Source of the DNA: Ignavibacteriales bacterium
GTDB lineage: Bacteria; Bacteroidota; Ignavibacteria; Ignavibacteriales; Melioribacteraceae
Assembly (NCBI GenBank): GCA_026390795.1
Contig: JAPLFG010000003.1
Span: 1,674,001 to 1,738,000 of the forward strand
Length of the DNA: 64,000 bases
Direction of reading: 5' to 3'
In this document: piece after piece, positions 2 through 16,470 of the stretch
How the letters are laid out: each line of letters opens with the position of its first letter
Position numbering within the stretch: the stretch's first letter is position 1
Made by a program: the position numbers and the translations under genes
The notes under the pieces: model-generated
The model's database searches: none
Seen by the model: the letters and a program-made list of their open reading frames with translations, nothing else
What the model was told of the DNA's origin: nothing

Positions 2-436
2 TCGTTTGAGGTTGTTGGTAAAGAGTGGATGGACGGATACGAGAAAAGAAAATTTGAATGCGGTCTTTATGATAGAGTTATTGATATTCTAAATAAAATC
101 AATCAGCTTGGCATCGGTCAATCAATACTTTCTGCATATTCACAACATACACTCGATGAGATGGTCGAGCATCATGGTTTAAAAAAATATTTTACGCATG
201 TTGTCGGTCTCGATAATATTTACGCAGCAAGTAAACTTCATCTGGGCAAAGATTTGATGAAAAGATTGGGTAACGGGAAGGGGGAGACTCTTCTAATTGG
301 CGATACTGAACATGATTATGAAGTGGCTATGGAGATCGGTGCCGACTGTGTTTTAATTGCGAACGGACACCAGAGTAAAGATAAATTAGAAAAACTTGGC
401 TGCGTTGTCCTCCCGAATTTAAATTTTCTTCTGTGA
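2..436 (+). CDS. HAD-superfamily phosphatase (5' end outside the window)
   Basis: This is the C-terminal part of a haloacid-dehalogenase-like hydrolase, probably of the phosphoglycolate-phosphatase type. The frame is open from base 2, before the first ATG at 29, so the gene starts upstream of the window. HAD motif II is the Ser in ILSAYSQ, motif III is a Lys in ASKLHLGKD, and motif IV is LIGDTEHDYEVA with the metal-binding Asp pair. Motif I (DxDxT, the nucleophile) and most of the cap are off the left edge, so activity cannot be judged. The 3' end overlaps the convergent M23 peptidase gene by 18 bases. The substrate is unknown; family assignment is fairly secure. Confidence 0.8.
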   Translation, partial: SFEVVGKEWMDGYEKRKFECGLYDRVIDILNKINQLGIGQSILSAYSQHTLDEMVEHHGLKKYFTHVVGLDNIYAASKLHLGKDLMKRLGNGKGETLLIGDTEHDYEVAMEIGADCVLIANGHQSKDKLEKLGCVVLPNLNFLL

Positions 437-1249
437 AGGTAGAACCAAATTAAACAAACTCATCGGATCGATTCTTTTTTTATACCATTGAACACCAAGG
501 TGTAGATGCGGTCCGGTTGCACGACCTGTTGAGCCCGCCAGACCAATAACTTCACCCTTTTTTATCTTCTGACTATTTTTCGCAAGAAGTTTACTCATGT
601 GAAGATAAACGCTTGTTAATCCTTGTCCGTGATCGAGAAGAATGAAATTGCCGTTATAGTAAAAATTGTCTCCGGCGATTCGTACAACACCATCGCTAAT
701 TGCCCTAATAGAATCTCCCACTTCAGCGGAAAAATCGAGACCGTTATGAATATTTGCCTTTTTGCCATTGAGAATTCTTTGACTTCCAAATACGCTTCTT
801 ATATCAACGCTGTCAACCGGATATGCAAAGCCGGACATGAACAACGCGTTTTTCACTTTGCCTACTTTCGCACGCGCAGCTTTCATTAATTTACTTTCGC
901 GTTGAATTTTTTTCAACTCTCTCTTGGGCGGGGTTACATATTTTTTCGCGATTGTTAAACTCTGTTCTTCATACTTACGCGGTTCAAGAGTATACTCCAA
1001 TGTTTTTACTTTTGTGTTTTTGAAGCGTATTTTTACTTTGAATAGACCTTTTGCGTCACGGTCAAATCCAAACACAAACGCACCGGATTTATCAATCTGT
1101 AAATTCACACCGTTCAACTGAGCGCTTGTAATATCTTTTCCGACACCTACAATAATTCCGCCCTGTTGAGCTTCTCCGTAAAAATTTATTTCTTGTGCCG
1201 TAAGCGTTGTCGAGAAAAATAAAACAATAAAAATGGAAATTGCTTTCAT
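419..1249 (-). CDS. Secreted M23 (LytM-type) metallopeptidase
   Basis: A periplasmic peptidoglycan endopeptidase candidate of 276 residues. Residues 1-19 form a signal peptide ending in TLTAQ. The M23 domain covers about 150-265 and keeps the zinc and catalytic residues: His168 and Asp172 (HNGLD), His217 (YLHMS) and the HLH pair His248/His250 (GPHLHLG). Active-site residues are therefore intact, unlike EnvC/NlpD-type activators that lack them. The N-terminal 130 residues look like a small beta-rich domain and then a basic helical linker. It lies 50 bases downstream of the TPR/barrel gene on the same strand and may be co-transcribed, perhaps for wall remodelling around an envelope export system. 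The peptide bond cleaved cannot be inferred. Confidence 0.88.
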   Translation of the reverse strand: MKAISIFIVLFFSTTLTAQEINFYGEAQQGGIIVGVGKDITSAQLNGVNLQIDKSGAFVFGFDRDAKGLFKVKIRFKNTKVKTLEYTLEPRKYEEQSLTIAKKYVTPPKRELKKIQRESKLMKAARAKVGKVKNALFMSGFAYPVDSVDIRSVFGSQRILNGKKANIHNGLDFSAEVGDSIRAISDGVVRIAGDNFYYNGNFILLDHGQGLTSVYLHMSKLLAKNSQKIKKGEVIGLAGSTGRATGPHLHLGVQWYKKRIDPMSLFNLVLPSQKKI

Positions 1250-1299: not shown

Positions 1300-4224
1300 T
1301 TAAAGAATTGCCCAGTATGCTGAAAGTTGACCGGAGAAATATCGGTAGCTTGAATTATCACGTGATGCACTTCCAATACTAATTTTTCCCGAAAGAATTA
1401 ATTTTTTAGTCGGAGTGTATTGTGCATTTATATGACCTTCAAGAGCAATTAATGTACTTTGAGGAATCAAACCGATTTTTCCTCCAATAGAAACTTTTAA
1501 TTTTTCACTTTTATCGAGATCGTTATCTAACCAAATACTATGCGATTCAAAATTGTGAGGTGAGTAGTAGAAGTTGGATTTATATTTATAATTTGAATAA
1601 GCATATTCGTAGCCGATAGCTATATCAGGCCAAAAATATTTTCCAAGTCTAATGTTAAAATCATTTCCAGCGTTACCGTCATCAACGCCGATGTATTGAA
1701 AATAGCCGGAGATTTTTAATCCATCACGATTTCTGTAATAAGCATCAATCTTATAGAGTGAAGCATAGTAACGCAAATCTATTAGATAAGGAGAGTAGAG
1801 TATGCTGACTGCGTCGGAATTCTGATAAGTAAGGCCCACTCTAATTGAGTCTGGTTTTTCAAAAACGAAAAAGGCATCATGATCATCTCGTGTAAATTTA
1901 CCTAGCGAACCGCTGATTCCAATTCCGACTCCCATACTAATATTACTTCCCAATCTTAAAAGAACTAACCCTTTAAAAGTTGTAAATACTTGATTGCCCA
2001 CAAAAGGAGTCCCGAGGTCATCCATACTGCTTAAGGCGTCTTGATTAAGACTGGCTTGGCTGGCTTTTATAGAGCTTCGTACTAATGAAACTCCAAGTGT
2101 TAGAAAATTAGTAACACCGAGTTCGAGTCTTCCTCCGGCACTCAAAATTCTAAAACTTAGATTATCCGTGTAATAAGAGAGTGACGGACTAAATCCAATA
2201 CTGTTAGGAAAGGTTTCGAAAATAGCAACAATGCCGGTAACCGGAAGCCAACCCTTGCGTTGCTTTACCATACTTACTTGCGCAGAGTCGAGTTTCCAAT
2301 CAAGAAGATTATTATAAACTGTCCGGGCGGAATCATTTGCCGCCATCTTTGCGTAAGAATCGCCAAGGTATAAATTCGCTTCAAAATCGGATGAATCTTG
2401 TTTTACCAAATCTTTGTATTCGCGAAGTGCGCTGACCGAATCTCCGGTTGCAAAATAAAGTGCGGCTCGGGATTTCTGTGCGTCGTAATTTTCTCCGTAT
2501 GAGAGAACTTTGTTATAAGTATCTAAAGCATCAGGATATTTTTTTGCGCTGAAAAGAACGTCTCCATATTCTTTAAGAACTAAAGTTGATGGTTCGGCTT
2601 TTGACATATAATCTTGATAGAATGGAATAGCGGCATCGTAATCTTTATCTATTACTTTTTGTCTTCCTTGTTCCAGAATGGCGTAAAGTTTTTCTTCTTC
2701 GAACCGCATCTTCTGCCAATCAATATTAGACTGAAGTTTAATAACATCTTCATTTGCCGGTTCGAGAGCTTTTGCTTTGTCGGCATATTCTTGAGCAGCC
2801 GGAAAATCCAGTTCTATTAGTTTGATCGATCCCATTGAGATAAATGCCGGAACAGAATTCGGTCTTTCTTTCAAAACATTATCAAGATATTGTTTGGCAA
2901 GTTCAATGTCGCGGTTGATCCAGACAGAAACTTGCGCCCGGAAAAGTTGATAATCGAGATTATTGGGATAATCAAGTAAAAGTTTATCGGTGATGTCAAT
3001 TGCTTTATCGAATTCACGGTTCCATGCAGATACTCTTGCCCACCTGTATCTGAGTGCCGGATCTTTCTCATCGGGATACTTTTCAAAATATTTATCGAGT
3101 ATAACTTGGGCGCTGTCATATTCCTGTAAATTTTCATGATACTCTGCAATTAACTTCAACGCTTCTTTATCGTCGGGATTTAATGAAAGGCGCACTTTGG
3201 CGCTGTCTAATCTTTCCCGGTAAGTTGTAGTTCTGAGATTTATAACATAATCGGATTTTTCTTTATAACGCGAGTCATCCGGATTGGTCGTTCCGATGAT
3301 AAGCAACTGTTGATAAGCTTCTTCAATCCTATTTGCTTTGATCAACTCATCAACTAATTCGTATCTCGACTCGATATCACTTGGAGTTTTTTTTAAAATT
3401 CTATATAGCCGGTCAATGGTATATTCTTTTTCGAATGCACGCGGATTTTCTTGAGTTAAGTATGCCCTGTTGTTCACCAAATCCAACCCATCTTGGGCTT
3501 CTTTAAAAAACGGTTTGAAGCCGAGAGAGGTTTCAAATGCTTTTTTGGCTATTGCGTATTTACTAAGCCACATTGTGAAATAACCGTAGCGGCTCCACAA
3601 ACGCCAATCTTCCGGATAACGTTCAACATATTTTTTTAGAATCCGCTCACCTTTAACAATGCTTCCGGTATGTGTAAGAATTATTGTATACCGAATAATT
3701 TCGTCGGGTGAGGCATTATCATCTCTTGCCAAATATTGATCATACCATTCTTCTGCTTTATCCCAAATTTCCATCCATGCATATGATTTTCCAATTTCGA
3801 GATAATTGAACGGCTTGTTCGGATCAATTGCTATTTCGCGTAAATGACCTTCAATTTTTTTGTTGAGGAGCGGATACCAGATATCAATCAAACGTTGAAG
3901 ATTTCTTTCATACTCGGCTCTTTTTGTCGTGCTGATAGTTTCGAGCGCAATTGCGCGTCTGTAATCAAGACGTCCATTTTCATATTGCTGGCGTTTCTCA
4001 AAACAAAGACCGCGTAAATTATATCCGTCGGATTCCTGAGGATTGGCTGTAATATATTTGTTGAGCTGATCAATAGCTTCGCCGTATCTTCCGGCTTGCA
4101 TGTGTGATAGCGCGGTTCTTTTTAGTTCACTAACATCAACTCTCTGCGCTTCCAAAAATTGCGGAAGAATGAAAAGTAAAAGTAAAAAGTAAAATTTAAT
4201 TCGGGATAAAATCATAATCCTCAT
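1300..4224 (-). CDS. TPR protein with C-terminal outer-membrane beta-barrel (YaiO/BcsC/PgaA-like architecture)
   Basis: A large exported protein of about 974 residues. The start is set at the ATG at 4224 or the ATG at 4215, directly before a signal peptide (FYFLLLLFILPQFLEAQ). An upstream ATG at 4296 would add a long basic extension and is less likely. Residues to about 700 are tandem TPR units (AGRYGEAIDQLNKY, YPDALDTYNKVL). The last 260 or so residues show alternating hydrophobic/aromatic strands of an outer-membrane barrel ending in SAYWAIL. TPR scaffold plus barrel is the layout of exopolysaccharide exporters such as BcsC and PgaA, and of YaiO-family proteins. The neighbouring acylation operon supports a glycan role, but a strong hairpin separates them and no glycosyltransferase or synthase is present, so export is inference. 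Confidence 0.7.
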   Translation of the reverse strand: MRIMILSRIKFYFLLLLFILPQFLEAQRVDVSELKRTALSHMQAGRYGEAIDQLNKYITANPQESDGYNLRGLCFEKRQQYENGRLDYRRAIALETISTTKRAEYERNLQRLIDIWYPLLNKKIEGHLREIAIDPNKPFNYLEIGKSYAWMEIWDKAEEWYDQYLARDDNASPDEIIRYTIILTHTGSIVKGERILKKYVERYPEDWRLWSRYGYFTMWLSKYAIAKKAFETSLGFKPFFKEAQDGLDLVNNRAYLTQENPRAFEKEYTIDRLYRILKKTPSDIESRYELVDELIKANRIEEAYQQLLIIGTTNPDDSRYKEKSDYVINLRTTTYRERLDSAKVRLSLNPDDKEALKLIAEYHENLQEYDSAQVILDKYFEKYPDEKDPALRYRWARVSAWNREFDKAIDITDKLLLDYPNNLDYQLFRAQVSVWINRDIELAKQYLDNVLKERPNSVPAFISMGSIKLIELDFPAAQEYADKAKALEPANEDVIKLQSNIDWQKMRFEEEKLYAILEQGRQKVIDKDYDAAIPFYQDYMSKAEPSTLVLKEYGDVLFSAKKYPDALDTYNKVLSYGENYDAQKSRAALYFATGDSVSALREYKDLVKQDSSDFEANLYLGDSYAKMAANDSARTVYNNLLDWKLDSAQVSMVKQRKGWLPVTGIVAIFETFPNSIGFSPSLSYYTDNLSFRILSAGGRLELGVTNFLTLGVSLVRSSIKASQASLNQDALSSMDDLGTPFVGNQVFTTFKGLVLLRLGSNISMGVGIGISGSLGKFTRDDHDAFFVFEKPDSIRVGLTYQNSDAVSILYSPYLIDLRYYASLYKIDAYYRNRDGLKISGYFQYIGVDDGNAGNDFNIRLGKYFWPDIAIGYEYAYSNYKYKSNFYYSPHNFESHSIWLDNDLDKSEKLKVSIGGKIGLIPQSTLIALEGHINAQYTPTKKLILSGKISIGSASRDNSSYRYFSGQLSAYWAIL

Positions 4225-4395
4225 TAATATGCTCGTTAAAAGTAACAACGGTAAAAAACGGATTAAACCAACTCGCCGCTCTATTCTCACGTTCAATTTA
4301 TCAAAAATTATGCAAAAAGTAATGGAGTAATGATAAATAGGATTATAGCTTGTTTTGGGGCAATCGCTTAAAAGATGAGCCGGTCTTGATGGGAT

Positions 4396-4429
4396 AATAT
4401 GAGACGGTTTTACATTACCGTCTCATATT
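4396..4429 (-). terminator. Strong hairpin ending the acylation operon
   Basis: A perfect 13-bp inverted repeat, AATATGAGACGGT (4396-4408) with ACCGTCTCATATT (4417-4429), and an 8-base loop. It overlaps the stop codon of the MBOAT gene. No clean U-tract follows on the minus strand, so it could be an RNA-stabilising 3' hairpin as easily as an intrinsic terminator. It suggests the TPR/barrel gene is transcribed separately. Confidence 0.6.
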
Positions 4430-5933
4430 AAAATTGGAAATAGATAAACGGCTGAATGTCCGCGGTCTTGAATTGGGCTACAATCCAAATTGCAATTACG
4501 AAAATTAAAATCTTTAAAGGAAGCGGCATTGCGGTAATAATTTTTTGAAACCAAGTTCCAAGTTTGGATGGCAAAAAGTGAAATAAGTATCCAATCACAA
4601 TCAGCCCAAGAATCAACGGAAGTTTTTCGGCGAATTGTAAAAAAACTTCTCCATGGAAAAAATTAAAAATCTGATCGAGCATATCAACTACACTTTGGAA
4701 ATCTTTCGCGCGGAAAATTAAAAACGATAACGCAACAAGATGAAATGTAATTACAATCTGGAAGAATCTTAAAAATCTTGTGTTGTAAATGCGTAAAAAT
4801 TTATAAAGTCTTTCTTTTGGCTTCTTAAAGAATAATGAGATAGACATCAACGTACCGTGAAAAACTCCCCAAAGTATAAAATTCCATCCGGCGCCGTGCC
4901 ACAAACCGCAGACGAAGAATGTTACAACAAGAGCGATAACATTTCCAAATATTTTCAAGCTGCGCGAAGAAATTTGAATCGGTTTGAATAAATAATCGAG
5001 CAGCCATTTAGAAAGTGATATATGCCATCTCCGCCAGAAATCGGCGATGCTTGCTGCTTTAAATGGGTAGTTGAAATTATCCATTAATTTAAAACCAAGT
5101 AGAAGAGCAATCCCTATTGCCATATCGGAGTAGCCGGAAAAGTCGCAATAGATTTGAAGCACGTAACCGTAAATCGCTAATAAATTTTCAACTCCGGTAT
5201 AACGTAAAGGGAAATCGAAAATCCGGTCGACAAAATTCAGACTTATATAATCCGCTACAACAACTTTCTTAAACAAACCGAGCATAATTAAAAAGAGCGC
5301 CCGGCCAATATCTTCTTTTGAGATAAAAGGTTCGCGGTCAATCTGCGGAAGAAAATCCGCCGCACGGTCAATCGGTCCGAGTAAAATATTTGGGAAGAAG
5401 AAAACATATAGACTGAAATCGCGCAAACTGTTTGTCGGTTTGAGAGTGTCGTAGTAAATGTCAAAAACATAGTTGAGCGATTTAAACGTGTAAAATGAAA
5501 TTCCAATCGGAAGAAAGATTGCAAGCGGATCGATAGTATGTTTGCTTATATCGGCAATGATCTGCAGAATAAAATTTGTGTATTTGAAATAGCCGAGAAG
5601 TGCAATGTTAAGAATTAGCGCGAGGACAAGAAATAATCTTTTGATGGGGAACCGGTCCGTACCGGCAATCCATTTGCCCGCATAAAAATTAACAACAGCA
5701 GAAACTATTAGAATGACAAAGTAGAGCCCCGCAGCTTTATAATAGAAGTAGAGTGAAAATATTATCAGCAATACGATTCTTGCCGCTTTGTTCTTTCCCA
5801 GCAGATTATAAAAGATTAAGAATCCTAAGAAAAGAAAAAGAAATAAACTTGTGCTGAAGATAAGCGGATCGTTCGGATCGTATTTTAAGAGAGAAAAGAT
5901 TTTTTCAAGACTGATAGAAGAGAACATGGGCAA
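4428..5933 (-). CDS. MBOAT-family membrane O-acyltransferase (DltB/AlgI-like)
   Basis: A polytopic inner-membrane protein of 501 residues with about ten hydrophobic segments. It belongs to the membrane-bound O-acyltransferase family that passes acyl groups from a cytoplasmic donor to a periplasmic acceptor (AlgI for alginate, DltB for teichoic acids). Family signatures are visible: a WRRWHISLSKW block with His304 and the GLWHGAGWNFILWGVFHG block with the catalytic-type His346 and a second His359. Length matches the family. It is the last gene of a minus-strand run SGNH, SGNH, acyl-AMP ligase, ACP, MBOAT, although 146 bases holding inverted repeats separate it from the ACP gene. The dedicated ACP suggests a carrier-bound acyl donor, as in DltC-DltB, rather than free acetyl-CoA. 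Confidence 0.9.
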   Translation of the reverse strand: MPMFSSISLEKIFSLLKYDPNDPLIFSTSLFLFLFLGFLIFYNLLGKNKAARIVLLIIFSLYFYYKAAGLYFVILIVSAVVNFYAGKWIAGTDRFPIKRLFLVLALILNIALLGYFKYTNFILQIIADISKHTIDPLAIFLPIGISFYTFKSLNYVFDIYYDTLKPTNSLRDFSLYVFFFPNILLGPIDRAADFLPQIDREPFISKEDIGRALFLIMLGLFKKVVVADYISLNFVDRIFDFPLRYTGVENLLAIYGYVLQIYCDFSGYSDMAIGIALLLGFKLMDNFNYPFKAASIADFWRRWHISLSKWLLDYLFKPIQISSRSLKIFGNVIALVVTFFVCGLWHGAGWNFILWGVFHGTLMSISLFFKKPKERLYKFLRIYNTRFLRFFQIVITFHLVALSFLIFRAKDFQSVVDMLDQIFNFFHGEVFLQFAEKLPLILGLIVIGYLFHFLPSKLGTWFQKIITAMPLPLKILIFVIAIWIVAQFKTADIQPFIYFQF

Positions 5934-5996
5934 ATGAATTTAATTGTTTTGGAAAATAGTCCTAATGGAACGCCGATCTTTATGATGATTATGATT

Positions 5997-6057
5997 CGTT
6001 ATGATTGATAATAGAAAATCATAAACGATCATGATAACCTGCCTACCGGTAGGTAGG
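5997..6057. repeat. REP-like intergenic palindromes
   Basis: The gap between the ACP and MBOAT genes holds two inverted repeats. The first is CGTTATGATT paired with AATCATAAACG (5997-6027, one bulge). The second is a 20-base near-perfect palindrome CCTGCCTACC/GGTAGGTAGG (6038-6057) with one G-T pair. The second has the look of short repeated extragenic palindromes, and it is GC-rich against very AT-rich surroundings. It could be a REP element or an mRNA-processing hairpin that sets ACP:MBOAT stoichiometry. Confidence 0.5.
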
Positions 6058-6079
6058 TCAGCGCTTTATTAACTAAGAG

Positions 6080-6313
6080 TTATTTACCGGTTTTAATATC
6101 AACAAGCTTCTGAAGATCGCCAACATTTTTCAAGCGCAGCACCTCATAACTCTTGAACTTCACGTTGAAAGATTTTTCAACAGCCAAAATTATATTCACG
6201 TGATTCAATGAATCCCAGCCCGGAACTTCCGGCGCCATAGTCTCATCTTGAAGATCGAAATCATCTAGATTAAGTTCTGTTAGAATTACTTTTTTTAGTT
6301 CTTGTGAGATCAT
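6080..6313 (-). CDS. Acyl carrier protein (DltC/ACP-like)
   Basis: A 77-residue carrier protein. The phosphopantetheine attachment site is Ser35 in PGWDSLNHV, and the acidic helical pattern (LNLDDFDLQDET) is typical of ACPs. Its start codon overlaps the stop of the acyl-AMP ligase gene by one base (TAATG, shared A at 6313), so the two are translationally coupled and probably made together. A dedicated carrier next to an adenylating enzyme and an MBOAT transferase implies that an activated acyl group is held on this protein and handed to the membrane enzyme. It is not in a fatty-acid synthesis cluster, so it is unlikely to be the housekeeping AcpP. Confidence 0.92.
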   Translation of the reverse strand: MISQELKKVILTELNLDDFDLQDETMAPEVPGWDSLNHVNIILAVEKSFNVKFKSYEVLRLKNVGDLQKLVDIKTGK

Positions 6314-8073
6314 TATCTACTCCAAACTTGTTTGTCTTCGCGACTTAGAATTCTTTCTTTATTTGCGTTTCTGCTCGGTTTGCCGGCGGAACTTTTAATT
6401 AACCATCGTGGCGGTACAAGATAAACTTTGTGAATATTGACATCTATTGCCATTCCGGCTCTCAAAATATCCATACGGATTTTATTTTTTCCAATTTCGG
6501 TTTCATCTTTTGTCTCTGCTACAACCGCAATCTGCTCAGTTCCCATCTGTTCGTCTTCTTCACCGAAAGAAATTACGCGACCCGGAATTATTCCATCAAC
6601 TTGATTGAGCGCATCTTCTATGTCTTCCGGGTAAATATTTTTTCCGGCAACAATTATCAGATCTTTTTTTCTTCCGATGATAAACAATTCGTTTTGATAT
6701 CTGAATCCCCAATCGCCGCTAAAGTACCAGCCGTTTTCAACAACTTCTGCGGTCTTTTCCGGATAATTCCTGTAGCCATCAAACATGGAAACTGATTTAA
6801 CGGCTACTTCACCAACAATTCCATCTGCAACATCTTTCCGCTTTTCGTCAACAATCCGGGCGTCGCATCCGTCAATACATTTTCCGCAAGAAACAGAAAC
6901 TCGTTTAACGGAATTTTCATCTGCGAATTTCATTACGCCTCGAGATAATTCATTTCTATCTAAAATTAATTCTTTAATTGGTTTTCCCGGATCTGTTAAT
7001 GTTAGGCAAAGAGAAACTTCAGCCATCCCATATAATACAGTAAGAGCAAGAGGATTGAATCCATGCTTTACAAATTTTTCTGTAAATTTTATGTGGCTGT
7101 CATGCCTAACTGGTTCGGCGCCGTTGATAACCAATCGTAAACTCTCTAGGGAAATATCATTTAGTTCATCATCGTGAATTTTTTCTGATAAAACATTATA
7201 CGCGAAATTCGGAAGACAAGTCAATGTTCCTTTTTCTTTGGTAATTGCCTCAAGCAAAAGAATCGGTGCAAGTACCCATTCGAATGGATTGATTTGAATA
7301 GTTGTAATTCCATAAGCTAACGGAATTTGGAAACACGCAATCAAACCGAAATCATGATAAAGAGGAAGCCAGCTAACAATTTTATCTTTATCCGATAAAT
7401 TTAATGCATTACCAAGATTTTGTGCATGATTTAAAACTGCCCGGTGAGATAATATTACAGGTTTTTGTAATCCGGTTGTGCCGGATGAATGTTGTAATAA
7501 AATTGCGTCGTCTTCTTTAACTGATAAGGCAATTTGTTCTATCTCGGAATCCGCCTTTGGATCAATATCGGTTTCGATATTCCACTCGAGCGGGAAAAAA
7601 ACAGATTTAATTGTACTGGCGGGGTTTTCAATTAATGGATGAATTATAGGGTCAAGCTCACGTTCGGTTAAAATATAATCGAGACCGGAACGCTGAGCCA
7701 TTCCTTCAATACCTTGACGGAACTTATCGGGATGCAAGCGGGGATTAGGATAGGCAAGCACTGCAGGGAGCGCTCCCATGCGGGAAATTCCAAGATACAA
7801 AGGATAGAAATTAGGATTATGATGCATTACAATTGCACAGACGTCCCCTTTCTTGATGCCTGCTTCTCTAACTTTAACGGAATATTTTTTTGCTGTCTGA
7901 ATTAGGTTTTTATAAGTCCAACGGATCGGCTCTTCGCCTGCAACCCAGTGAACAATGGCTTCGCGATCCGGATTCTTTTCCGCATTGGCTTGCCATCTTT
8001 CCCAAAGAGTTTTTTCTAAACCAGACGAATCACTTGTTGGAATACCGGTAAAGTTATTATCGTTATTACTCAC
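6313..8073 (-). CDS. Fatty-acyl-AMP ligase-like adenylating enzyme
   Basis: A 586-residue ANL-superfamily enzyme that activates a carboxylic acid as acyl-AMP and should load it onto the adjacent ACP. The P-loop is SSGTTGLQK (about 196-204), followed by SWLPLYHDFGLIAC, a block typical of fatty-acyl-AMP ligases, and YGMAEVSL (adenine-binding region). The C-terminal subdomain begins near GRKKDLIIVAGKNIYPEDIE, and a catalytic Lys about 20 residues from the end lies in SSAGKPSR. These motifs favour a FAAL-type activator over a D-alanine ligase (DltA), although the operon layout is dlt-like. Acyl specificity cannot be read from the sequence. It lies 31 bases after the SGNH gene. Confidence 0.88.
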   Translation of the reverse strand: MSNNDNNFTGIPTSDSSGLEKTLWERWQANAEKNPDREAIVHWVAGEEPIRWTYKNLIQTAKKYSVKVREAGIKKGDVCAIVMHHNPNFYPLYLGISRMGALPAVLAYPNPRLHPDKFRQGIEGMAQRSGLDYILTERELDPIIHPLIENPASTIKSVFFPLEWNIETDIDPKADSEIEQIALSVKEDDAILLQHSSGTTGLQKPVILSHRAVLNHAQNLGNALNLSDKDKIVSWLPLYHDFGLIACFQIPLAYGITTIQINPFEWVLAPILLLEAITKEKGTLTCLPNFAYNVLSEKIHDDELNDISLESLRLVINGAEPVRHDSHIKFTEKFVKHGFNPLALTVLYGMAEVSLCLTLTDPGKPIKELILDRNELSRGVMKFADENSVKRVSVSCGKCIDGCDARIVDEKRKDVADGIVGEVAVKSVSMFDGYRNYPEKTAEVVENGWYFSGDWGFRYQNELFIIGRKKDLIIVAGKNIYPEDIEDALNQVDGIIPGRVISFGEEDEQMGTEQIAVVAETKDETEIGKNKIRMDILRAGMAIDVNIHKVYLVPPRWLIKSSAGKPSRNANKERILSREDKQVWSR

Positions 8074-8104
8074 GCCTACTCTTATTTATTCAGAGATTGA
8101 TTAT

Positions 8105-9508
8105 TTATTTATACAATTTTAATAATGCCTCGGTTAGTAAATCCGCTACTTTCTTTGCGCCTTGATCATTGAAATGAATAAAATCTTTGAATGCCAAAGG
8201 AGGATTTGCATTCACCCAATTAGGCATCGAATTTTCTCCGCCCATTGCTTCAAACAAATTCCATATTGCTACATCGGAAAGTTTCGCAATATTTTTTTGT
8301 GTTTCTAAGAGCCGCAAAATTCCCGGATCGGTTACAAAACTGGATCCTTTCTTCATAGACCGGTCGTGTATAGAGATCATCAAGAAACTTGATTTAGGAA
8401 AAACCGATTTCAAATGATTAATAACTTTCACCATTTCTTTTTCGTACCAACTGTAATCTGTATTACGCGACCCGGCGATATTTAAACCGAATTCAAGGAT
8501 GATTAATTTGTAATCAAAATATTTAGAGAATTCTTTTAGAATTCCTTCTTGAAGAGAGCCAAGATCAACACCGGTATTCCCGCGTAGAGGAAAATTATCC
8601 ACGTAAATGCCTGGTTCATTTTCCAAACTTACTCCATAAAAATAAGCTTGATCTGCCATTGGAAATTCAATCCGGATTGATTTTGCACGGGAATCCGGTT
8701 TCAAAACTAATTCTTGCAGAGCACTTCCTGTTTTAAGTGGAGTTGTTTTTTTTGCGCCGCCATCAAACGAGTAAGTAATATTTGAGCTCTTTGCGTTTGC
8801 GTAATAAAGACGAACTAAACTGAAATCTTTTAATGATCTTCTGATACGCGTTGTTTCATATTGAACCCATGCGCTCCCTTTTGGTACAAATGCTTCTCCG
8901 CTGATTCCTAGCGGAAGTCCTTTAGGATTGCTTGTATAGAGTGCGGCAGATTCCCAATTGTCGGAGAACGAATGTTTTGTTGTTTGCCTGAACATAATAT
9001 CTTGAGAAGTAATACCAAGCCAGCCAACACCGTTACCGCCAAATTTATCCTGAAGTGTCTGGCGAATATCAGATGTTATTAAATCGCCCTCAATTGCTGA
9101 ATCGCCAAAATGTGCAACACGTATAGTTTTTGATTTTGCGTTTTTTACCGCATCGAAGAAGTAGCTTAATTGTTTTATGTTGCCAGTGATTGGAGTGTTT
9201 TTATTCTGAAGAGCTAATTCATAGAGACTTCCGGATTTATCAGTAGCCGAACCAAAAAATGAAAACGCGGAAGAAAAAACATTCGAGAAATCAAGAGAAG
9301 CTTGGTTGACGCGTGCTCTTAAATTACTAACCGGTTGTATCGCATTTGCCGGTTCAACTTTTACATCGGAAAGAATATCAACGCTCTTCAAATTAAAGCT
9401 GAGAGCAGAAATCTGGTAATCTATTTTCACAAACGAAATCGCGTATAATATGATGATTGTAAGAACAACTATAATTAACGGTTCTCTGAATTTGTTTTCA
9501 CTCTGCAT
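8105..9508 (-). CDS. Membrane-anchored SGNH/GDSL hydrolase of the acylation operon
   Basis: A 467-residue protein with an uncleaved-looking N-terminal membrane anchor (about 10-27) and a periplasmic body. The SGNH blocks are visible: block I HFGDSAIEGD with nucleophile-type Ser137, a block III-like LEFGLNIA, and block V DFIHFNDQGAK with the Asp-His pair near the C-terminus. Between blocks I and III lies a roughly 150-residue beta-rich insertion (FSLVRLYYANA, SIRIEFPMADQ) that resembles a carbohydrate-binding module. Topology and context match DltD and AlgX/AlgJ-type partners of MBOAT transferases, so it may complete acyl transfer or deacylate the product. 117 bases separate it from the upstream SGNH gene. 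Confidence 0.82.
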   Translation of the reverse strand: MQSENKFREPLIIVVLTIIILYAISFVKIDYQISALSFNLKSVDILSDVKVEPANAIQPVSNLRARVNQASLDFSNVFSSAFSFFGSATDKSGSLYELALQNKNTPITGNIKQLSYFFDAVKNAKSKTIRVAHFGDSAIEGDLITSDIRQTLQDKFGGNGVGWLGITSQDIMFRQTTKHSFSDNWESAALYTSNPKGLPLGISGEAFVPKGSAWVQYETTRIRRSLKDFSLVRLYYANAKSSNITYSFDGGAKKTTPLKTGSALQELVLKPDSRAKSIRIEFPMADQAYFYGVSLENEPGIYVDNFPLRGNTGVDLGSLQEGILKEFSKYFDYKLIILEFGLNIAGSRNTDYSWYEKEMVKVINHLKSVFPKSSFLMISIHDRSMKKGSSFVTDPGILRLLETQKNIAKLSDVAIWNLFEAMGGENSMPNWVNANPPLAFKDFIHFNDQGAKKVADLLTEALLKLYK

Positions 9509-9625
9509 ATAAAACCCTTCTTAAAATTTACTATTGATATATTCTAATAAAATTTGACACTTAAAAAATTCAGTACTAGAGATTCATCATTCCGGTTTAT
9601 GTAAGTCAAGATGATGAAAGAAAAA

Positions 9626-10351
9626 TTACAGTTTATGCTTTACCAAAACTTTTTCAACTTCTTTTGCCCAGAGTTTATACGCATCTGCTTTAAAATGAAT
9701 TCCATCCCAGCTTAATTCGGGACGTAAGAATCCATCCTTACCCGCAGTCAACGAGTTCACATCAATGTAGTCGATGTTGTTCTTCTTCGCGTAATCCGAA
9801 AGGAGTTTGTTCAATTTATCTACTTCTCGGTTCCTCCCGAAATTTCCTTCCGGAGTTCCGCCCCAATCTTTTGCATAAGTTTTAGCGGAATAAGTTGTTG
9901 ATTGAATCACGGGAATTATATTTCTTGACCGGAGACCGGATATAATGCGAACATAAACAGCAAATATATCTTCAACCGGAGTCCAATTATAAATATCATT
10001 TAACCCGCCCATTATAAAAACAATTTTCGGATTCAGCTTGTAAATAGCGCTTATTCTCGATTCGTAACCATAAAGGACATCGCTTGTAATTCCGCGTTCA
10101 ATAACATTAGGACGACCTAACAATTCATTCCATGCGGCGCCGTGAGTTAAAGAATTTCCGAGCATAACAATATCTGCCTGGCGGGTTTTATAAATATCGA
10201 ACATTGATTGCTGAAGAGTGTAATTGGAATTAGTGCGATACCGTAGTGTATCTTTTACAATCGGTTTAGTTTGCGGGAATGATACAGCTGAAATTAAAAC
10301 GATATAGAAGCATGCCTGCGCTAATATATTTTTTGAAGATTTTGTTTTCAC
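9626..10351 (-). CDS. Secreted SGNH hydrolase with a GNS block I
   Basis: A 241-residue exported esterase-like protein, signal peptide about 1-27. SGNH blocks are present: MLGNSLTHG (Ser67), a block II Gly in ERGITSDVLYG, MGGLNDI (block III), and DGIHFKADAY (block V Asp/His). The usual Asp before the nucleophile is Asn66 (GNS instead of GDS), a variant seen in some glycan esterase and PAF-acetylhydrolase-like families; the catalytic Ser is kept. It is the first gene of the run leading into the acylation operon and probably acts in the periplasm or outside the cell as an O-acyl esterase. The substrate is unknown. Confidence 0.8.
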   Translation of the reverse strand: MKTKSSKNILAQACFYIVLISAVSFPQTKPIVKDTLRYRTNSNYTLQQSMFDIYKTRQADIVMLGNSLTHGAAWNELLGRPNVIERGITSDVLYGYESRISAIYKLNPKIVFIMGGLNDIYNWTPVEDIFAVYVRIISGLRSRNIIPVIQSTTYSAKTYAKDWGGTPEGNFGRNREVDKLNKLLSDYAKKNNIDYIDVNSLTAGKDGFLRPELSWDGIHFKADAYKLWAKEVEKVLVKHKL

Positions 10352-10439: not shown

Positions 10440-12101
10440 TTAGGATTTGTCCTTCCCTTCATCCATGTTCATCTTTTTTTCGCTTTCTAAAATTCGGAAT
10501 TTGAGATTTTTCTCCATAGCAATTAGTTCTGAAATCTTCGCAGTAAATTCTTCTTTTTTAATCTCTGTATTTGCGGTCTCTGTTTTAAGCAGACGTAATT
10601 CATTTCTTTGATTGGCGATTTGCTCCTTTAATTCTTCGAGTTCGCGAGTTGCTTGTGCCGTTTCTAATACCAGCTTTTGCTTGTTGTCGTTTAAGCTGGA
10701 ATAATTTTCACTGATTTGGATGAAGAGCTGTCTAATATCTTTCTCGAATGATTCTTTCTTTATTTCGAGAGAAGCTGTCTCGGACTTCAGCTGCTGAATA
10801 AAAAGCTTTTGCCTAGTTGCTTCATCCTTCAATGTTAGGACTAAATTACTTAACTCGGTTGATTCTTGTTTTAGATTTGAAAGTAACTGTTCTGTTGCAG
10901 CCCGCTCTTTCTGAAGTACTTTCGTTAAGCCGCCGTATTCGGCAACTTGAGTTGTCTTTTCAAGAAGAATTTTCTCTTTGTGGGATAGTTCCTTTTCCTT
11001 TTCTAAAATATCCTGACGGAGTGAGCTAAGTTTACTCTTCGATGAATTAAGTTCCTCGGTAAATTTTTGAAGAACTTGTGAAAAGTTGTTTTCAACTTTT
11101 AGATGCGATTCTTCAATCTCAAACTTACGTTTCTCAAGTTCTTCAATGGTTTTCTGTTTTTGATTCACAGATTCTGTCAAAGTCTCTTCATCGTTGCCTA
11201 GTTGAAGCAGCTTATCCTGCAGTTCATTTTTAACTGTTTCAAAGTTTCTTGTTTCATCGGATAGTTCATTGCGTTTATAGGTGAGATCTTTTATGTCTTC
11301 TTCAAGTTTTGATATTGTCTCTTTAGTAAAATTATATCTGGATTCAAATTCGTCAAATTCCTTCTGTCGTTCCCGAAGCTGATCACCTAATGAATCGCGT
11401 TCATTTATTAATTCACTTAATATATTTTCTTTCTCGGAGAGACGACCGATAATTGCCGATAATGATGATTCAAGATTGCTTTTGATTTCTTCGGCGAGAG
11501 AAATTTTTTCATCCAGTGTATTAATAGCGGCTGTTTTTTTACCTTCTTCCACCTTAAGCTGATTTATTCTGTCTGTAAGTTCGGATGTGTCCAAACCGGC
11601 AGCTGCCTGATCAAGTGAAGAGCGCAATTTCTCTTCTTCATTATGAAGATTCGCAATGCTAATGCGGAGAGAGTTTTCTTCGTTCGCAAGCTTTTCAATA
11701 GATGAGTGAAGATCGCCTAAATCTTCATTCAGCTTCTCAATTTCCAACTGTTTTTCTGAGAGAGCCCTCTCAACATTCTGCTGAGACTCGGTTTCAATTT
11801 CTCTAACTGTAGATTCGACGGAAGATTTTTTTTCGGCAAGCAAATTAATAGTTTCAGTTAGTTCACTCACTTCTTCTGTTTTGGAAGTAAAGTCAATCAC
11901 CAACGATTTCAGATTGTTTTTTAATTTTTCAGTTTCGGTAGTAATTTCTGTGAACTCTTTTCTGGCTTCGTTAAGCTTATTTTCAAGTTCAACAAGATTT
12001 TGATGTTTTTGGAGGACTTGATGCAGAGTGTTTTTTAATTCATCGTTCTCTTCTACGAGCTTTTCAATTTCACTTTTTGCCTTCGATGAAAAAAGACTCA
12101 T
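10440..12101 (-). CDS. Long cytoplasmic coiled-coil protein
   Basis: A 553-residue protein that is almost entirely heptad-repeat coiled coil rich in Glu, Lys, Leu, Asn and Ser, from about residue 8 to 545. It has no signal peptide, membrane segment, Walker motif or other enzymatic motif. It looks like the arm of an SMC protein without head domains, but no hinge or ATPase is present, so it is not a true SMC. Blocks recur internally (for example the SETASLEIKKESFEKDI and KTETANTEIKKEEFTAKI segments), pointing to internal duplication. It sits 88 bases upstream of the SGNH genes on the same strand. A structural or polar scaffold role is possible; no specific function can be assigned. Confidence 0.75.
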   Translation of the reverse strand: MSLFSSKAKSEIEKLVEENDELKNTLHQVLQKHQNLVELENKLNEARKEFTEITTETEKLKNNLKSLVIDFTSKTEEVSELTETINLLAEKKSSVESTVREIETESQQNVERALSEKQLEIEKLNEDLGDLHSSIEKLANEENSLRISIANLHNEEEKLRSSLDQAAAGLDTSELTDRINQLKVEEGKKTAAINTLDEKISLAEEIKSNLESSLSAIIGRLSEKENILSELINERDSLGDQLRERQKEFDEFESRYNFTKETISKLEEDIKDLTYKRNELSDETRNFETVKNELQDKLLQLGNDEETLTESVNQKQKTIEELEKRKFEIEESHLKVENNFSQVLQKFTEELNSSKSKLSSLRQDILEKEKELSHKEKILLEKTTQVAEYGGLTKVLQKERAATEQLLSNLKQESTELSNLVLTLKDEATRQKLFIQQLKSETASLEIKKESFEKDIRQLFIQISENYSSLNDNKQKLVLETAQATRELEELKEQIANQRNELRLLKTETANTEIKKEEFTAKISELIAMEKNLKFRILESEKKMNMDEGKDKS

Positions 12102-12208
12102 TCTTTATCTGCTCCTTATTTGGCTGGTATATAATGCTTAAAACAAAGATAATAAACTTTGTTAAATGTATCCTCTATTATAATAAGATTACAATCCCGG
12201 TTGCCCGG

Positions 12209-12571
12209 CTAAAAAGTTTCCGAGGAAACATTATCTCTAAGCGTTTTAAGCGATAGTATATAAATGGAAACCGAGACCGCGATAATTAATAAAAGTATTC
12301 TTACGATTAAATCTTCTGTAAAGAAAAGTGCAGAACAACTGATTGTAATTGCCATCATTGTAATAGAAATTATCTTTGCTCTAATGGGCATTCCTTTTTT
12401 CTCGCGGTAATCCCGGACAATCTTCCCGAAGATGGGATGATTGATCAGCCGGTTATAAAATTTTTCTGAACTTCTCGCAAAACACCACGCTGCTAAAATG
12501 AAAAATATTGTAGTCGGCATTAAGGGAAGAAATATTCCTATTGTTCCGAGTACAATGAATAACCATCCCAA
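12209..12571 (-). CDS. DUF454 (YbaN-family) small inner-membrane protein
   Basis: About 120 residues with the YbaN/DUF454 pattern: a first hydrophobic hairpin (FIVLGTIGIFLPLMPTT), the conserved AAWCFARSSEKFY, a central NHPIFGKIVRDYREKKGMP block, then two more membrane segments. The function of this family is not established. The start is odd. The first usual-type codon in frame is TTG at 12571, but the frame stays open upstream and encodes residues that extend the first membrane helix (KIVLIV directly before LGW). No ATG or GTG lies between that region and the preceding in-frame stop, so translation may use TTG or a rare ATT/ATA codon further upstream. Confidence 0.82.
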   Translation of the reverse strand: MGWLFIVLGTIGIFLPLMPTTIFFILAAWCFARSSEKFYNRLINHPIFGKIVRDYREKKGMPIRAKIISITMMAITISCSALFFTEDLIVRILLLIIAVSVSIYILSLKTLRDNVSSETF

Positions 12572-12641
12572 AACAATTAAAACTATTTTATAGATAAAAA
12601 TGTGTTTACCCGTTTGATGTAATGAATATTAAAAAGTGCGA

Positions 12642-13505
12642 TTACTCTTCTCGAATTTTATTAAGATAATCTTTATAAAGAGATTTTGGAATTCTTTCCA
12701 AAAGAGAATCAAACTGTTCTTTATCAATGAATCCTTTCTGATAGGCGATTTCTTCAATGCATGCAACTTTCAATCCCTGGCGGTCTTCAATAATTCCAAA
12801 GAAGTTTGATGCTTTCAGAAGCGCTTCCGGTGTTCCGGTATCAAGCCATGCAACGCCTCGTCCAATTTTTCCTACTTTTAACTCTCCTAGCTCTAGATAT
12901 TTCTTGTTAACATCAGTAATCTCAAGCTCACCTCTTTGGGATGGTTTCAATTTTTTGGAGATCTCAATTACTTTATTGTCATAAACGTATAGACCTGGAA
13001 CCGCAAAGTTGGATTTCGGTCTATCCGGTTTCTCTTCAATACTTATTGCTTTACCATCTTCTGCAAATTCAATAATACCATAACGTTCAGGATCGTTAAC
13101 TTGATAAGCAAATATTGTAGCGCCGGATTTTTTTTGTTCAACGGCTCTGTAGAAAAAATCCAAAGTACCGTAAAAAATATTATCGCCCAAAATTAATGTA
13201 ACGGAATCATTGCCAATAAATTTTTCGCCTAGAATAAATGATTGAGCAATTCCGTTCGGTGCCGGTTGTACTACATACTCAATTTTCATTCCGATGTGAG
13301 ATCCGTCATCAAATAATTTTTTGTAGAGAGGGATTGTTTCTTCGTTAGAGATGATAAGGATTTCGCGGATTCCGGCGAGCATTAATATTGAAAACGGATA
13401 ATAGATTAGCGGTTTATCATAGATTGTCACAAGTTGCTTGCTGTAAACTTTTGTCATAGGATACATTCTTGTGCCGGAGCCGCCCGCTAAAATTATTCCT
13501 TTCAT
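12642..13505 (-). CDS. rmlA: Glucose-1-phosphate thymidylyltransferase
   Basis: Makes dTDP-glucose from glucose-1-phosphate and dTTP, the first step to dTDP-L-rhamnose and other deoxysugars. The full-length 287-residue protein has the nucleotidyltransferase signature GGSGTRMYPMTK at its N-terminus, the KPLIYYPFSILMLAG block, the Asp of ILGDNIFYG, and the sugar-binding IEEKPDRPKSN and GLYVYD segments. rmlB, rmlC and rmlD are not in the window, so the rest of the pathway is encoded elsewhere. It follows the envelope block on the same strand and suits supply of sugar nucleotides for surface glycans. Confidence 0.93.
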   Translation of the reverse strand: MKGIILAGGSGTRMYPMTKVYSKQLVTIYDKPLIYYPFSILMLAGIREILIISNEETIPLYKKLFDDGSHIGMKIEYVVQPAPNGIAQSFILGEKFIGNDSVTLILGDNIFYGTLDFFYRAVEQKKSGATIFAYQVNDPERYGIIEFAEDGKAISIEEKPDRPKSNFAVPGLYVYDNKVIEISKKLKPSQRGELEITDVNKKYLELGELKVGKIGRGVAWLDTGTPEALLKASNFFGIIEDRQGLKVACIEEIAYQKGFIDKEQFDSLLERIPKSLYKDYLNKIREE

Positions 13506-13527
13506 AGAAATCCATTTTGTTGTTGAA

Positions 13528-14286
13528 TCAATTTGTTACTGAAATATAAGCCGTTTTAATTAATAATTCCTTTTCGTCATACAGGTAGATTTTATACTCT
13601 CCAGGCCTGGTAAATCTGTATCTGAAATAAGTATCATTCCATTCGTTTTCAATCTGAAATTTTTTTGAATCAACGAATTCGTCGTAATCAAGATTATTAT
13701 TTGGTTTGCGCCATGTATTGATGAGAATTTTTTCGGTTCCGAAAGGTTGAGTATTATTCAGACAAATGTAAATTGTTCCTCCATCAGCGCTGAGTGAAAT
13801 ACTTCGCTTTGTATTCACCGGTCTTCCAGATTGTATCTTGTCGCTTAGAATAACTTCAACACCGCTGTATTTTTGAACAAAGAGAGGTTCTAATTGTTTA
13901 GTTTCCTTTGGAGTGCCGATATAAACTGTTAAAGCGGAAAGACGGTTTTTATATTCATCGGTAAAATAGATTTCGAATTTTCCCTCTTTAACAAATTTGT
14001 AGAAAAGTGGAATCCAATTTTCCTTTTCCGGTTTAAAAATTTTGTTCAGTTGATTTTCCCTCCCGCCCCCGATGATTCTATCAATGAACAGATTGATTGT
14101 CTTTCCCGAGATCTTTTTTTTCTCGCCTGAAAATAAAACACATACCGATTGATTGAGAGTTAATGTAGATGAATAGATCAAATCAATCGGCTCACCGTGG
14201 TTTGTGTACGCTTTGCAAAGAATAATTCGCTGAGCCGGAATTACGACACCGTATAAAAATGTAACAATGAAGAAAAGCTTTTTCAA
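13528..14286 (-). CDS. Secreted protein of unknown function
   Basis: A 252-residue exported protein with an N-terminal signal peptide (about 1-18, ending IPAQ). The mature part looks all-beta and appears to have two related halves: ILCKAYTNHGEPIDL with later KISGKTINLFIDRIIGG, and an Ig-like C-terminal segment (FRYRFTRPGEYKIYLYDEKE). No catalytic motif or known family was recognised. It sits 22 bases upstream of rmlA in the transcription direction and is probably co-transcribed. The C-terminus resembles adhesive or carbohydrate-binding sandwich folds, but that is a weak impression. Confidence 0.65.
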   Translation of the reverse strand: MKKLFFIVTFLYGVVIPAQRIILCKAYTNHGEPIDLIYSSTLTLNQSVCVLFSGEKKKISGKTINLFIDRIIGGGRENQLNKIFKPEKENWIPLFYKFVKEGKFEIYFTDEYKNRLSALTVYIGTPKETKQLEPLFVQKYSGVEVILSDKIQSGRPVNTKRSISLSADGGTIYICLNNTQPFGTEKILINTWRKPNNNLDYDEFVDSKKFQIENEWNDTYFRYRFTRPGEYKIYLYDEKELLIKTAYISVTN

Positions 14287-14370
14287 TAAGAAGTTTATTA
14301 TTATTTCTTCATATAATTAATAAATTGAAACTCAAAATCCAACAAGTACAAAAAATGAAAAGACGCACCG

Positions 14371-14844
14371 TTACAATTTTGAGTGAAATGAAAATTTTAT
14401 CAACCGTGGTTTTACAAGCCGTCCATAATCTTTAAATGACATCTGCAAAAGTTCGACATGACTGCAAGCGTTGAAAGCAATCTCTTCGTCTTTTGCCAAA
14501 ATTTCTTCAACATAGACGTCCATGCCATAAAGGTTGCCGAATGGCGGCATAGCTCCAACATCACACTCGGGAAATTTATCTCTGAATTCTACTTCGTTTG
14601 CAATCCGGACATTCATTCCGCCAAGTGCTTCTTTTAAAAGATCAAAATCAATTTTATAAGAAGCAGGAAGAACACACATTGCCATTTTACCATCAATTTT
14701 GATTAGGACGGTTTTTGCCAATTCTTTCCCTTTGATATGTGCTGATGCAGCTATTTCTTGTGCGGTATATGCTACGGAATGTTTAACGGTTACATACCTA
14801 ACTTTGTTTTGATCCAAAAATTCTCTTAACATTTTAGTTGGCAT
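14371..14844 (-). CDS. YbaK/ProX-type aminoacyl-tRNA deacylase
   Basis: A 157-residue editing-domain protein of the YbaK/EbsC family, which hydrolyses mischarged tRNAs such as Cys-tRNA-Pro or Ala-tRNA-Pro. The start chosen is the ATG at 14844 (MPTKMLREF) because a strong Shine-Dalgarno, GGAGG, lies 6-7 bases before it; an ATG 30 bases further out lacks one. Conserved features are the HSVAYTAQEIA block, the substrate-pocket Lys in GKELAKTVLIK, the GAMPPFGNLYGMDVYV block with its GxxPPFG turn, and FNACSHVELLQMSFKDY near the end. It is free-standing rather than part of a prolyl-tRNA synthetase. The exact tRNA substrate is not predictable. Confidence 0.88.
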   Translation of the reverse strand: MPTKMLREFLDQNKVRYVTVKHSVAYTAQEIAASAHIKGKELAKTVLIKIDGKMAMCVLPASYKIDFDLLKEALGGMNVRIANEVEFRDKFPECDVGAMPPFGNLYGMDVYVEEILAKDEEIAFNACSHVELLQMSFKDYGRLVKPRLIKFSFHSKL

Positions 14845-14888
14845 AAATCCTCCTTTAATATTTGAGAAGATCAAAAAAAATTTATGAA

Positions 14889-15324: not shown

Positions 15325-15533
15325 TTTTTCCGCTTTTGTTTTTTTAAAATATTTCCTAGATGTTCTATTATCGAAAGAATTTAATAATATATTATCATCG
15401 TCACACTATAATTTAACTTTCTTCACAAATTAATCAAACAGAAATCTGCAAAAGTAAACGCAGTACACTGAGAAACAACTTTTGAATTGAACTCAATTTG
15501 CATATTTTAGCTTCCAATTATGTGAAAAATGAA

Positions 15534-16454: not shown

Positions 16455-16470
16455 TTATCAAAAAAATAAT

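Follow-up and report, generated by a model that had tools for sequence, protein, structure and literature searches.

A run of five genes on the minus strand of a 64,000-nucleotide stretch of DNA from an Ignavibacteriales bacterium (GenBank assembly GCA_026390795.1, contig JAPLFG010000003.1, positions 1,674,001 to 1,738,000; the window) likely encodes an acylation machine in which a membrane-bound O-acyltransferase (MBOAT) and SGNH proteins are fed by a dedicated acyl carrier protein (ACP), itself loaded by a fatty acyl-AMP ligase (FAAL)-like enzyme. The source genome is a 4.08 Mb assembly of five contigs. Among named relatives the closest carry the labels Bacteroidetes bacterium or Melioribacter sp.; in the tree it is surrounded by Ignavibacteriota. 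All five genes reported by an initial annotation of the window are open frames at the coordinates below, and the active-site and motif residues it had assigned (Ser137, Ser67, Ser35, SSGTTGLQK and GLWHGAGWNF) are present.

9626 to 10351, minus strand: SGNH2, a GDSL/SGNH protein of the GNS variant with a signal-peptide-like start (Ser67, Asn118, Asp216, His219)
8105 to 9508, minus strand: SGNH1, a membrane-anchored Ape1-type SGNH protein (Ser137 in GDS, Asn343, Asp442, His445)
9353 to 9508, minus strand: SGNH1 anchor, residues 1-52, with a transmembrane helix at 8-25 (AlphaFold2, AF2) and the motif [V/I]D..[S/M]D[I/V][K/R]
6313 to 8073, minus strand: FAAL-like ligase with an insertion of FAAL length (SSGTTGLQK)
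6080 to 6313, minus strand: ACP, a carrier of 77 residues (Ser35 in GWDSLNH)
4428 to 5933, minus strand: MBOAT, a DltB core with a C-terminal extension (His304, His346, GLWHGAGWNF)
4953 to 4997, minus strand: MBOAT residues 313-327 (DYLFKPIQISSRSLK), the carrier-type segment, aligned with helix HC of DltB, the docking site of DltC
4431 to 4448, minus strand: C-terminal FIYFQF of the MBOAT, an FXYXXF acyl-shuttle motif with Tyr498

The gene order is SGNH2-SGNH1-FAAL-ACP-MBOAT. Ligase and ACP are coupled as previously annotated, their frames overlapping within TAATG. The gap between ACP and MBOAT measures 146 bp and contains a palindromic repeat, while it is 0 to 30 bp in several relatives; thus coupling of the MBOAT looks looser in the window. 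The palindrome (CCTACCGGTAGG, window positions 6038 to 6057) gave two overlapping matches in the window and none in shuffled sequences.

Passages of PMC12148441 (2025) divide MBOAT-SGNH pathways into two classes: Dlt, with a carrier, a separate DltX shuttle and D-alanine, and the acyl-CoA class without a carrier and with the shuttle fused to the MBOAT. There, PatA is described to self-acetylate the Tyr of its C-terminal FXYXXF motif and PatB to accept the acetylated motif peptide as a donor. In the Dlt pathway FXYXXF sits on DltX, and pathways besides Dlt are said to be without a carrier (PMC12148441). The window MBOAT combines a fused shuttle motif with a carrier encoded in the same operon. 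It matched Pfam MBOAT with 7e-25, and its sole NCBIfam match was the DltB model TIGR04091 with 193 bits, under the cut-off of 375. An AF2 model with a pLDDT of 89 had DltB (8jem, 1e-15) as its best Foldseek match. DltB aligns only through residue 408; the remainder consists of extra helices and ends with FIYFQF, and residues 493-501 had a pLDDT under 50. His346 was invariant in 32 aligned MBOATs. Conservation of the shuttle was assessed in a named collection, where 552 matches to the pattern included 543 that encode a relative; the best 80 were taken as 78 loci. FXYXXF was present in 53 of the 61 MBOATs of at least 440 residues from these loci. Of the remaining eight, contig ends truncate two, and six retain the Tyr with the first Phe altered, in two of them the last Phe as well. 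The system has sequence and model traits of an MBOAT-SGNH pathway, i.e. an MBOAT fold with a catalytic His, a C-terminal FXYXXF and an SGNH partner with Ser, Asp and His; an acyl-Tyr intermediate and acyl transfer onto a polymer are predicted.

By sequence the ligase is FAAL-like, with both FAAL profile and insertion, and its predicted product is an acyl-ACP rather than an acyl-CoA. It scored 311 bits with NCBIfam PRK09192, under the model's own cut-off of 600, and its best PDB matches were the FAALs 3kxw (3e-57) and 3pbk (1e-52). The spacing from YGMAE to SCGK was 44 residues, a value consistent with the insertion that PMC8460268 and PMC11837247 describe as specific to FAALs. The genome encodes seven AMP-binding proteins, and three of the six others were measurable with spacings of 18, 18 and 20. 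Spacings were counted by pattern; a MAFFT alignment had misplaced the motif. Among 26 FAAL rows 24 gave a value, which was 44 in 20 rows, 45 in one and 46 in one; two values (174 and 210) are pattern misses, and two rows had no pattern match. With the DltA model TIGR01734 no protein of the whole genome scored above the cut-off of 560. The best reached 85 bits and the window ligase 35.8 bits. Given this score and the FAALs as best matches, we rejected DltA as the identity of the ligase, and the FAAL-like character assigned to it initially was borne out.

The ACP is closest among solved structures to PDB 2lml, with 6e-12 as a single sequence and 4e-17 as a profile. We take 2lml to be GmACP3 of Geobacter metallireducens, presumably sharing the W-D-S-L-x-H motif and encoded in a lipopolysaccharide-linked gene context. 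Ser35 was invariant in 24 of 24 aligned ACPs. At an E-value of 0.001 six generic ACP models matched the carrier and none of the matching models was DltC, so the grouping with DltC that would have spoken for a Dlt operon did not appear.

A FAAL match at 1e-40 was found in 36 of 57 relatives, in G027 and G029 as distant matches only (30-33% identity); 34 stretches with a FAAL were read among these genomes. Of the 78 loci, 72 offered 350 bp of room, and an ACP followed the FAAL in 67 of these; among the 40 with 3 kb on each side, 35 had an MBOAT within 3.5 kb of the FAAL. These counts argue against a chance cluster. ACPs were counted by a six-frame search; open-frame lists missed ACPs masked by antisense frames. 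Where there was room, the operon included SGNH1 in 26 and SGNH2 in 25 of 30 loci. Loci with the labels Elusimicrobia, Verrucomicrobia, Acidobacteria, Omnitrophota, Zixibacteria, Lindowbacteria and Myxococcota likewise have a FAAL close to an MBOAT, here a more distant one. Among those tested, an SGNH-like neighbour was recognised in five (L104, L107, L111, L113, L117), each time by a weak Pfam GDSL match that stayed under the cut-off; the neighbour in L097 had no family match. L111 and L113 sit among glycosyltransferases. Nine of the 78 loci carry a tandem pair of FAAL genes or gene pieces; L065, not counted among them, has one gene split by frame. The initial annotation would have been weakened by genes that do not stay together. 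Instead, they are linked in relatives, and FAAL-ACP accompanies an MBOAT in other phyla too. With a ligase that is not DltA and a carrier that is not DltC its interpretation is supported, while acyl group and acceptor are still inferred.

Searching with the MBOAT uncovered operons of the same kind without FAAL. Six loci have SGNH1-ACP-MBOAT without an adjacent FAAL (L135, in tandem twice; L136-L139; L147). Six others have an MBOAT without FAAL and ACP (L140-L145), with SGNH1 beside it in L140-L143 and L145; on the short contig of L144 no SGNH1 was seen beside the MBOAT. The order in L145, RmlA-CC-SGNH2-SGNH1-MBOAT-TPR-M23, is that of the window minus FAAL-ACP. In the MBOAT tree, from which L147 was left off because of a contig end, the group lacking FAAL and the group lacking FAAL and ACP were each a single clade, with 99/97 and 100/100, and both stood among carrier-type rows. 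As the tree is only weakly rooted, either a gain or a loss of FAAL-ACP may lie behind the two groups.

The MBOATs of both kinds differ at the putative donor site. Between 58 carrier-type and six carrier-less MBOATs the fixed differences were GPID versus GPIV, and DYLFxPxQ...R versus DYLYxxLGGN. This comparison left out L066 and L071; L017, on the contig of L066, reads GPIE and L071 reads GPID. The second difference was generalized to a loop pattern, L[GR]G[NS] no more than 34 residues away from RWH, which was fixed after viewing distant and plasmid-borne MBOATs. A carrier was counted as nearby when an ACP lay within 2.5 kb or a FAAL within 3.5 kb, and four MBOATs without RWH were not scored. 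No MBOAT that had an ACP or FAAL nearby contained the loop (0 of 77), as against 28 of the 36 others. Outside the discovery rows the counts were 0 of 15 with and 22 of 29 without a carrier, the contig-edge locus L146 being left out. Among 14 scored rows first viewed after the pattern was fixed, none with a carrier, ten had the loop. The comparison MBOATs came from 12 of 136 plasmid records and 18 weaker MBOAT matches, without G053:C267 and G053:C325. We attach no probability to these counts because the rows are related. DltB, itself fed by a carrier, is also without the loop. According to the sections of PMC11035591 that describe the complex, Met36 and Val39 of DltC contact Met302, Val305, Ile306 and Met309 of DltB, and Glu40 contacts Lys312 and Arg317. 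By alignment and numbering, residues 313-327 of the window MBOAT match M302/V305/I306/M309/K312 in helix HC of DltB. The part that differs with the presence of a carrier thus coincides with a known carrier dock.

Some neighbouring arrangements deserve mention in their own right. In L136, whose genome has no FAAL beside the MBOAT, a LuxC-LuxE-AMP ligase-SDR-ACP cluster (10655-15404) is convergent with SGNH1-ACP-MBOAT, and in L138 (15468-19989) LuxC and a ligase are similarly placed, of which only LuxC was tested with Pfam. L160 and L161 (G050 and G043) contain an MBOAT type with FLSENxFNPL replacing the LGG loop, SGNH1-like pieces nearby and no recognised ACP. In Parabacteroides distasonis (L148, 3189-7470) a CoA-type MBOAT with 48% identity to that of the window forms one run with a GDSL protein and an Ape1-like protein, their annotations being MBOAT, GDSL-type and hypothetical; the run may be an undescribed O-acylation system of Bacteroidota.

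In the AF2 model of SGNH1 (pLDDT 83) a transmembrane helix is followed by a disordered linker and then by a fold of two domains. As modelled, the SGNH plus beta domain fold is that of Ape1, a peptidoglycan O-acetylesterase. The VIA Z was 38.3 over 340 residues for Neisseria Ape1 (4k3u) and 34.7 for Campylobacter Ape1, the next family following with 18.6. PatB, considered as the nearest fold, ranked far lower with a Z of about 16 and was discarded. AlgJ, AlgX and DltD were absent among the 50 fold matches listed, which excludes none of them. Ser137 and His445 were conserved in 41 of 41 SGNH1 sequences and Asp442 in at least 90%. PatB lacks the Gly of block II and has Ser or Asn there (PMC12148441, in the part dealing with PatB). 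Gly310 of SGNH1 is invariant and aligns with a Gly of Ape1; its assignment to block II is our reading of the alignment. SGNH2 matched Pfam Lipase_GDSL_2 (8e-20), with a Bacteroides sialate O-acetylesterase as nearest profile match (7pzg/6njc, E about 2e-39). Asn66, Ser67, Asp216 and His219 were present in 21 of 21 SGNH2 sequences. Several loci (L012, L049 and others) encode a protein of 95-97 residues between SGNH2 and SGNH1; the L049 copy belongs to the Cdd1 family (PF11731).

In nine loci the slot of SGNH1 is occupied by its anchor alone, a microprotein of 51-87 residues with a single transmembrane helix, without full SGNH1. These are L075-L077, L083-L085, L087 and L106 of the 78 loci, and L018; L055 was dropped because of a contig end. 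FXYXXF was found in none of the nine microproteins. In all four such fission genomes tested an unlinked SGNH1 is present, which, as judged by eye, has a signal-peptide-like start and lacks the anchor motif. In all four it directly follows the gene of a tetratricopeptide repeat (TPR) protein. The next gene encodes a family 2 glycosyltransferase (GT2) in three (L178-L180), while the fourth stops at a contig end; the GT2 of L178 was tested and is PgaC-like with 215 bits (cut-off 422). SGNH1 is found either with the anchor or beside TPR and therefore travels with one or the other. The C-terminal shuttle motif of the MBOAT, the Ape1 fold of SGNH1 and its gene link to TPR all go beyond the initial annotation.

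The following sequence of events is proposed. As expected from its family, the FAAL would activate an acid, probably a free fatty acid, as the acyl-AMP and load it on the phosphopantetheine at Ser35 of the operon ACP. The sequence contrast between MBOATs suggests that the acyl-ACP, replacing acyl-CoA, would dock on the cytoplasmic segment 313-327, the site of DltC on DltB. The shared motif implies that His346 would transfer the acyl group to Tyr498 of the FIYFQF shuttle at the outer face. Last, an anchored SGNH protein, either SGNH1 or SGNH2 together with the anchor microprotein, may take over the group from the shuttle on its Ser and esterify a glycan. FAAL-ACP would act as an exchangeable donor module, the sister operons without it presumably using acyl-CoA. 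A wider proposal, for which we see somewhat less than an even chance, is a new class of surface lipidation, where a FAAL draws fatty acids from the free pool onto a private ACP that supplies an MBOAT-SGNH pair esterifying an exported glycan or peptidoglycan, the removable FAAL-ACP is swapped together with the donor helix of the MBOAT, and a microprotein holds the extracytoplasmic enzyme on the MBOAT.

Several observations weigh against the proposed mechanism. The identity of the acyl group, probably a fatty acid, is deduced from the ligase family alone. Because Ape1, an esterase, is the nearest fold of SGNH1 and the block II Gly is retained, SGNH1 may strip acyl groups rather than add them. 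SGNH2 was missing in five and full SGNH1 in four of the 30 loci with room. In G052 and G055, two genomes with SGNH1-ACP-MBOAT and no adjacent FAAL, a FAAL is encoded on another contig; the other four genomes with this arrangement had no FAAL match at 1e-40. Eight MBOATs have neither the loop nor a carrier seen nearby (L089, with FAAL-ACP about 5 kb away, the first copy of L109, L146, L159-L161, L174 and L176). Of the 62 near MBOATs of carrier type, 61 had GPID (L017 having GPIE), but none of 15 distant carrier-linked ones did, and GPID was dropped as a general second donor mark. Besides, the named loci are mostly metagenome assemblies and the rows are related.

The acceptor was considered with regard to the genes around the operon, four of which are listed here.

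1300 to 4296, minus strand: TPR protein (Pfam TPR) with a barrel-like C-terminal stretch, the outer-membrane barrel being read from sequence only
419 to 1249, minus strand: M23 peptidase, Pgp3-like (Pfam M23 2.6e-29; NCBIfam Pgp3 169 bits, cut-off 300)
15498 to 16454, plus strand: BadF/NagK-like amino-sugar kinase (PF01869 1e-36; NF046058 NagK 116 bits, cut-off 370)
16411 to 18270, plus strand: AmpG-like permease (TIGR00901 168 bits, cut-off 350)

A relative of the TPR protein is present in 19 of the 78 loci, often right after the MBOAT. L184 (G048) is a continuous locus from SGNH2 through TPR with a GT2 gene just past it. In the window genome the GT2 cluster lies on a different contig together with another TPR protein (L183), thus TPR and GT2 are linked by paralogy only. 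These data point, with close to an even chance in our estimate, to an exported beta-glycan, possibly of amino sugars, which would be made by a PgaC-like synthase and leave the cell via the TPR outer-membrane protein. An amino-sugar beta-glycan would fit, as the Ape1 fold and the PgaC-like synthase both agree with it. A cluster of genes for a GH9 protein, a KaiC-like ATPase, TPR, GT2, x632 and fn3 is repeatedly found within the order (L178, L183-L185), in many cases together with NlpC and an epimerase, and resembles an unstudied exopolysaccharide locus.

Alternatively, the same machine may act on peptidoglycan as a fatty-acyl version of PatA-PatB-Ape1, with SGNH1 or SGNH2 acylating MurNAc or GlcNAc and perhaps tying the sacculus to a membrane. 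The Ape1 fold of SGNH1 (Z 38 versus 19 for the next family) agrees with this idea. The peptidoglycan-recycling neighbours, i.e. AmpG, NagK and the M23 peptidase gene beside TPR, also fit this acceptor and count against an exported glycan. In several genera these genes adjoin the operon: the AmpG-like permease and NagK-like kinase in L069, L079 and L106, and the kinase also in L070 and L081; in L046-L048 and L054 both genes lie within several kb of it. AmpG is about 10 kb or less from the FAAL in six genomes of the window genus (G000, G003, G005, G006, G007, G010). NlpC/P60 and epimerase directly follow the MBOAT in L086, L095 and L119, NlpC also in L116, and NlpC/P60 is within 10 kb of the FAAL in seven of 14 family-2 and family-3 genomes with a FAAL. 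Yet, NlpC and epimerase are part of the wider GH9-KaiC-TPR-GT2 cluster and occur away from FAAL as well. AmpG is farther away or on another contig in other FAAL genomes, among them G016, G018, G022 and G026. SGNH1 remains beside TPR in the four fission genomes, and a peptidoglycan acceptor has no need of an outer-membrane TPR protein. On account of the cluster membership of NlpC and epimerase, and of the split SGNH1 standing with TPR (with GT2 in three of four), peptidoglycan was moved from first to second choice, and we regard it as unlikely, albeit with appreciable weight.

It is improbable that FAAL and ACP serve a separate lipid or protein acylation and that the MBOAT works independently of the SGNH proteins on a lipid or lipoprotein. 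In G030 FAAL-ACP-MBOAT is indeed apart from SGNH2-SGNH1-TPR. On the other hand, the operon retains each of the SGNH genes in most of the loci that have room, as counted above, and the shuttle motif of the MBOAT is the one that passes acyl groups to SGNH partners. Still less probable is an MBOAT using acetyl-CoA like PatA or AlgI with FAAL-ACP as an unrelated passenger. The sister operons without FAAL-ACP would agree with a passenger, while the loop at the carrier-docking site is in no scored MBOAT next to ACP or FAAL and in most others, across several phyla. A true D-alanylation operon in a Gram-negative has next to no likelihood and is already largely refuted: the four protein types are the same and DltB is the only NCBIfam match of the MBOAT, but the ligase is FAAL-like with no DltA in the genome above the cut-off (85 of 560 bits), DltC is not matched, and the shuttle is on the MBOAT instead of a DltX.

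The carrier-fed machine proposed for the window can be set against known systems. It shares with Dlt (DltA-DltC-DltB-DltX-DltD) the ligase, carrier, MBOAT and SGNH-type protein, a core nearest to DltB and a donor segment at the DltC site. It differs in having a FAAL, another ACP, an MBOAT under the DltB equivalog cut-off, an MBOAT-borne shuttle, an Ape1-type SGNH protein and a Gram-negative-type envelope. Of the "Dlt-like acylation" annotated initially, the supply by a carrier thus stands, while membership in Dlt is not upheld by the DltA, DltB and DltC models. PatA/PatB/Ape1, AlgI/AlgJ and WssH/WssI resemble the window system in the C-terminal FXYXXF fused to the MBOAT and in SGNH partners, SGNH1 having the Ape1 fold. 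In contrast to them, an ACP and a FAAL are dedicated parts of the operon, its MBOAT has another sequence in place of the LGG loop seen in most MBOATs without a carrier, and the anchor can be a separate microprotein; instead of an acyl-CoA donor without a carrier, use of the ACP is predicted. As in FAAL-ACP starter modules of lipopeptides and polyketides a FAAL would load a carrier ACP, yet there is no polyketide synthase or non-ribosomal peptide synthetase in the operon, and a membrane acyltransferase would receive the acyl-ACP. The words MBOAT, polysaccharide and peptidoglycan were searched for in the main text of PMC11837247, a FAAL review from 2025, and were not found. Among literature titles and abstract openings none concerned FAAL or ACP with an MBOAT-SGNH pair; subscription papers are thinly covered there, so that absence is unproven.

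Taken together, the operon mixes features of both MBOAT-SGNH classes and would widen their chemistry to fatty or other acids. The loop segment would provide a mark, readable from sequence, for the type of donor, carrier or CoA. The system points to a lipid-decorated glycan in phyla that are almost without envelope biochemistry.

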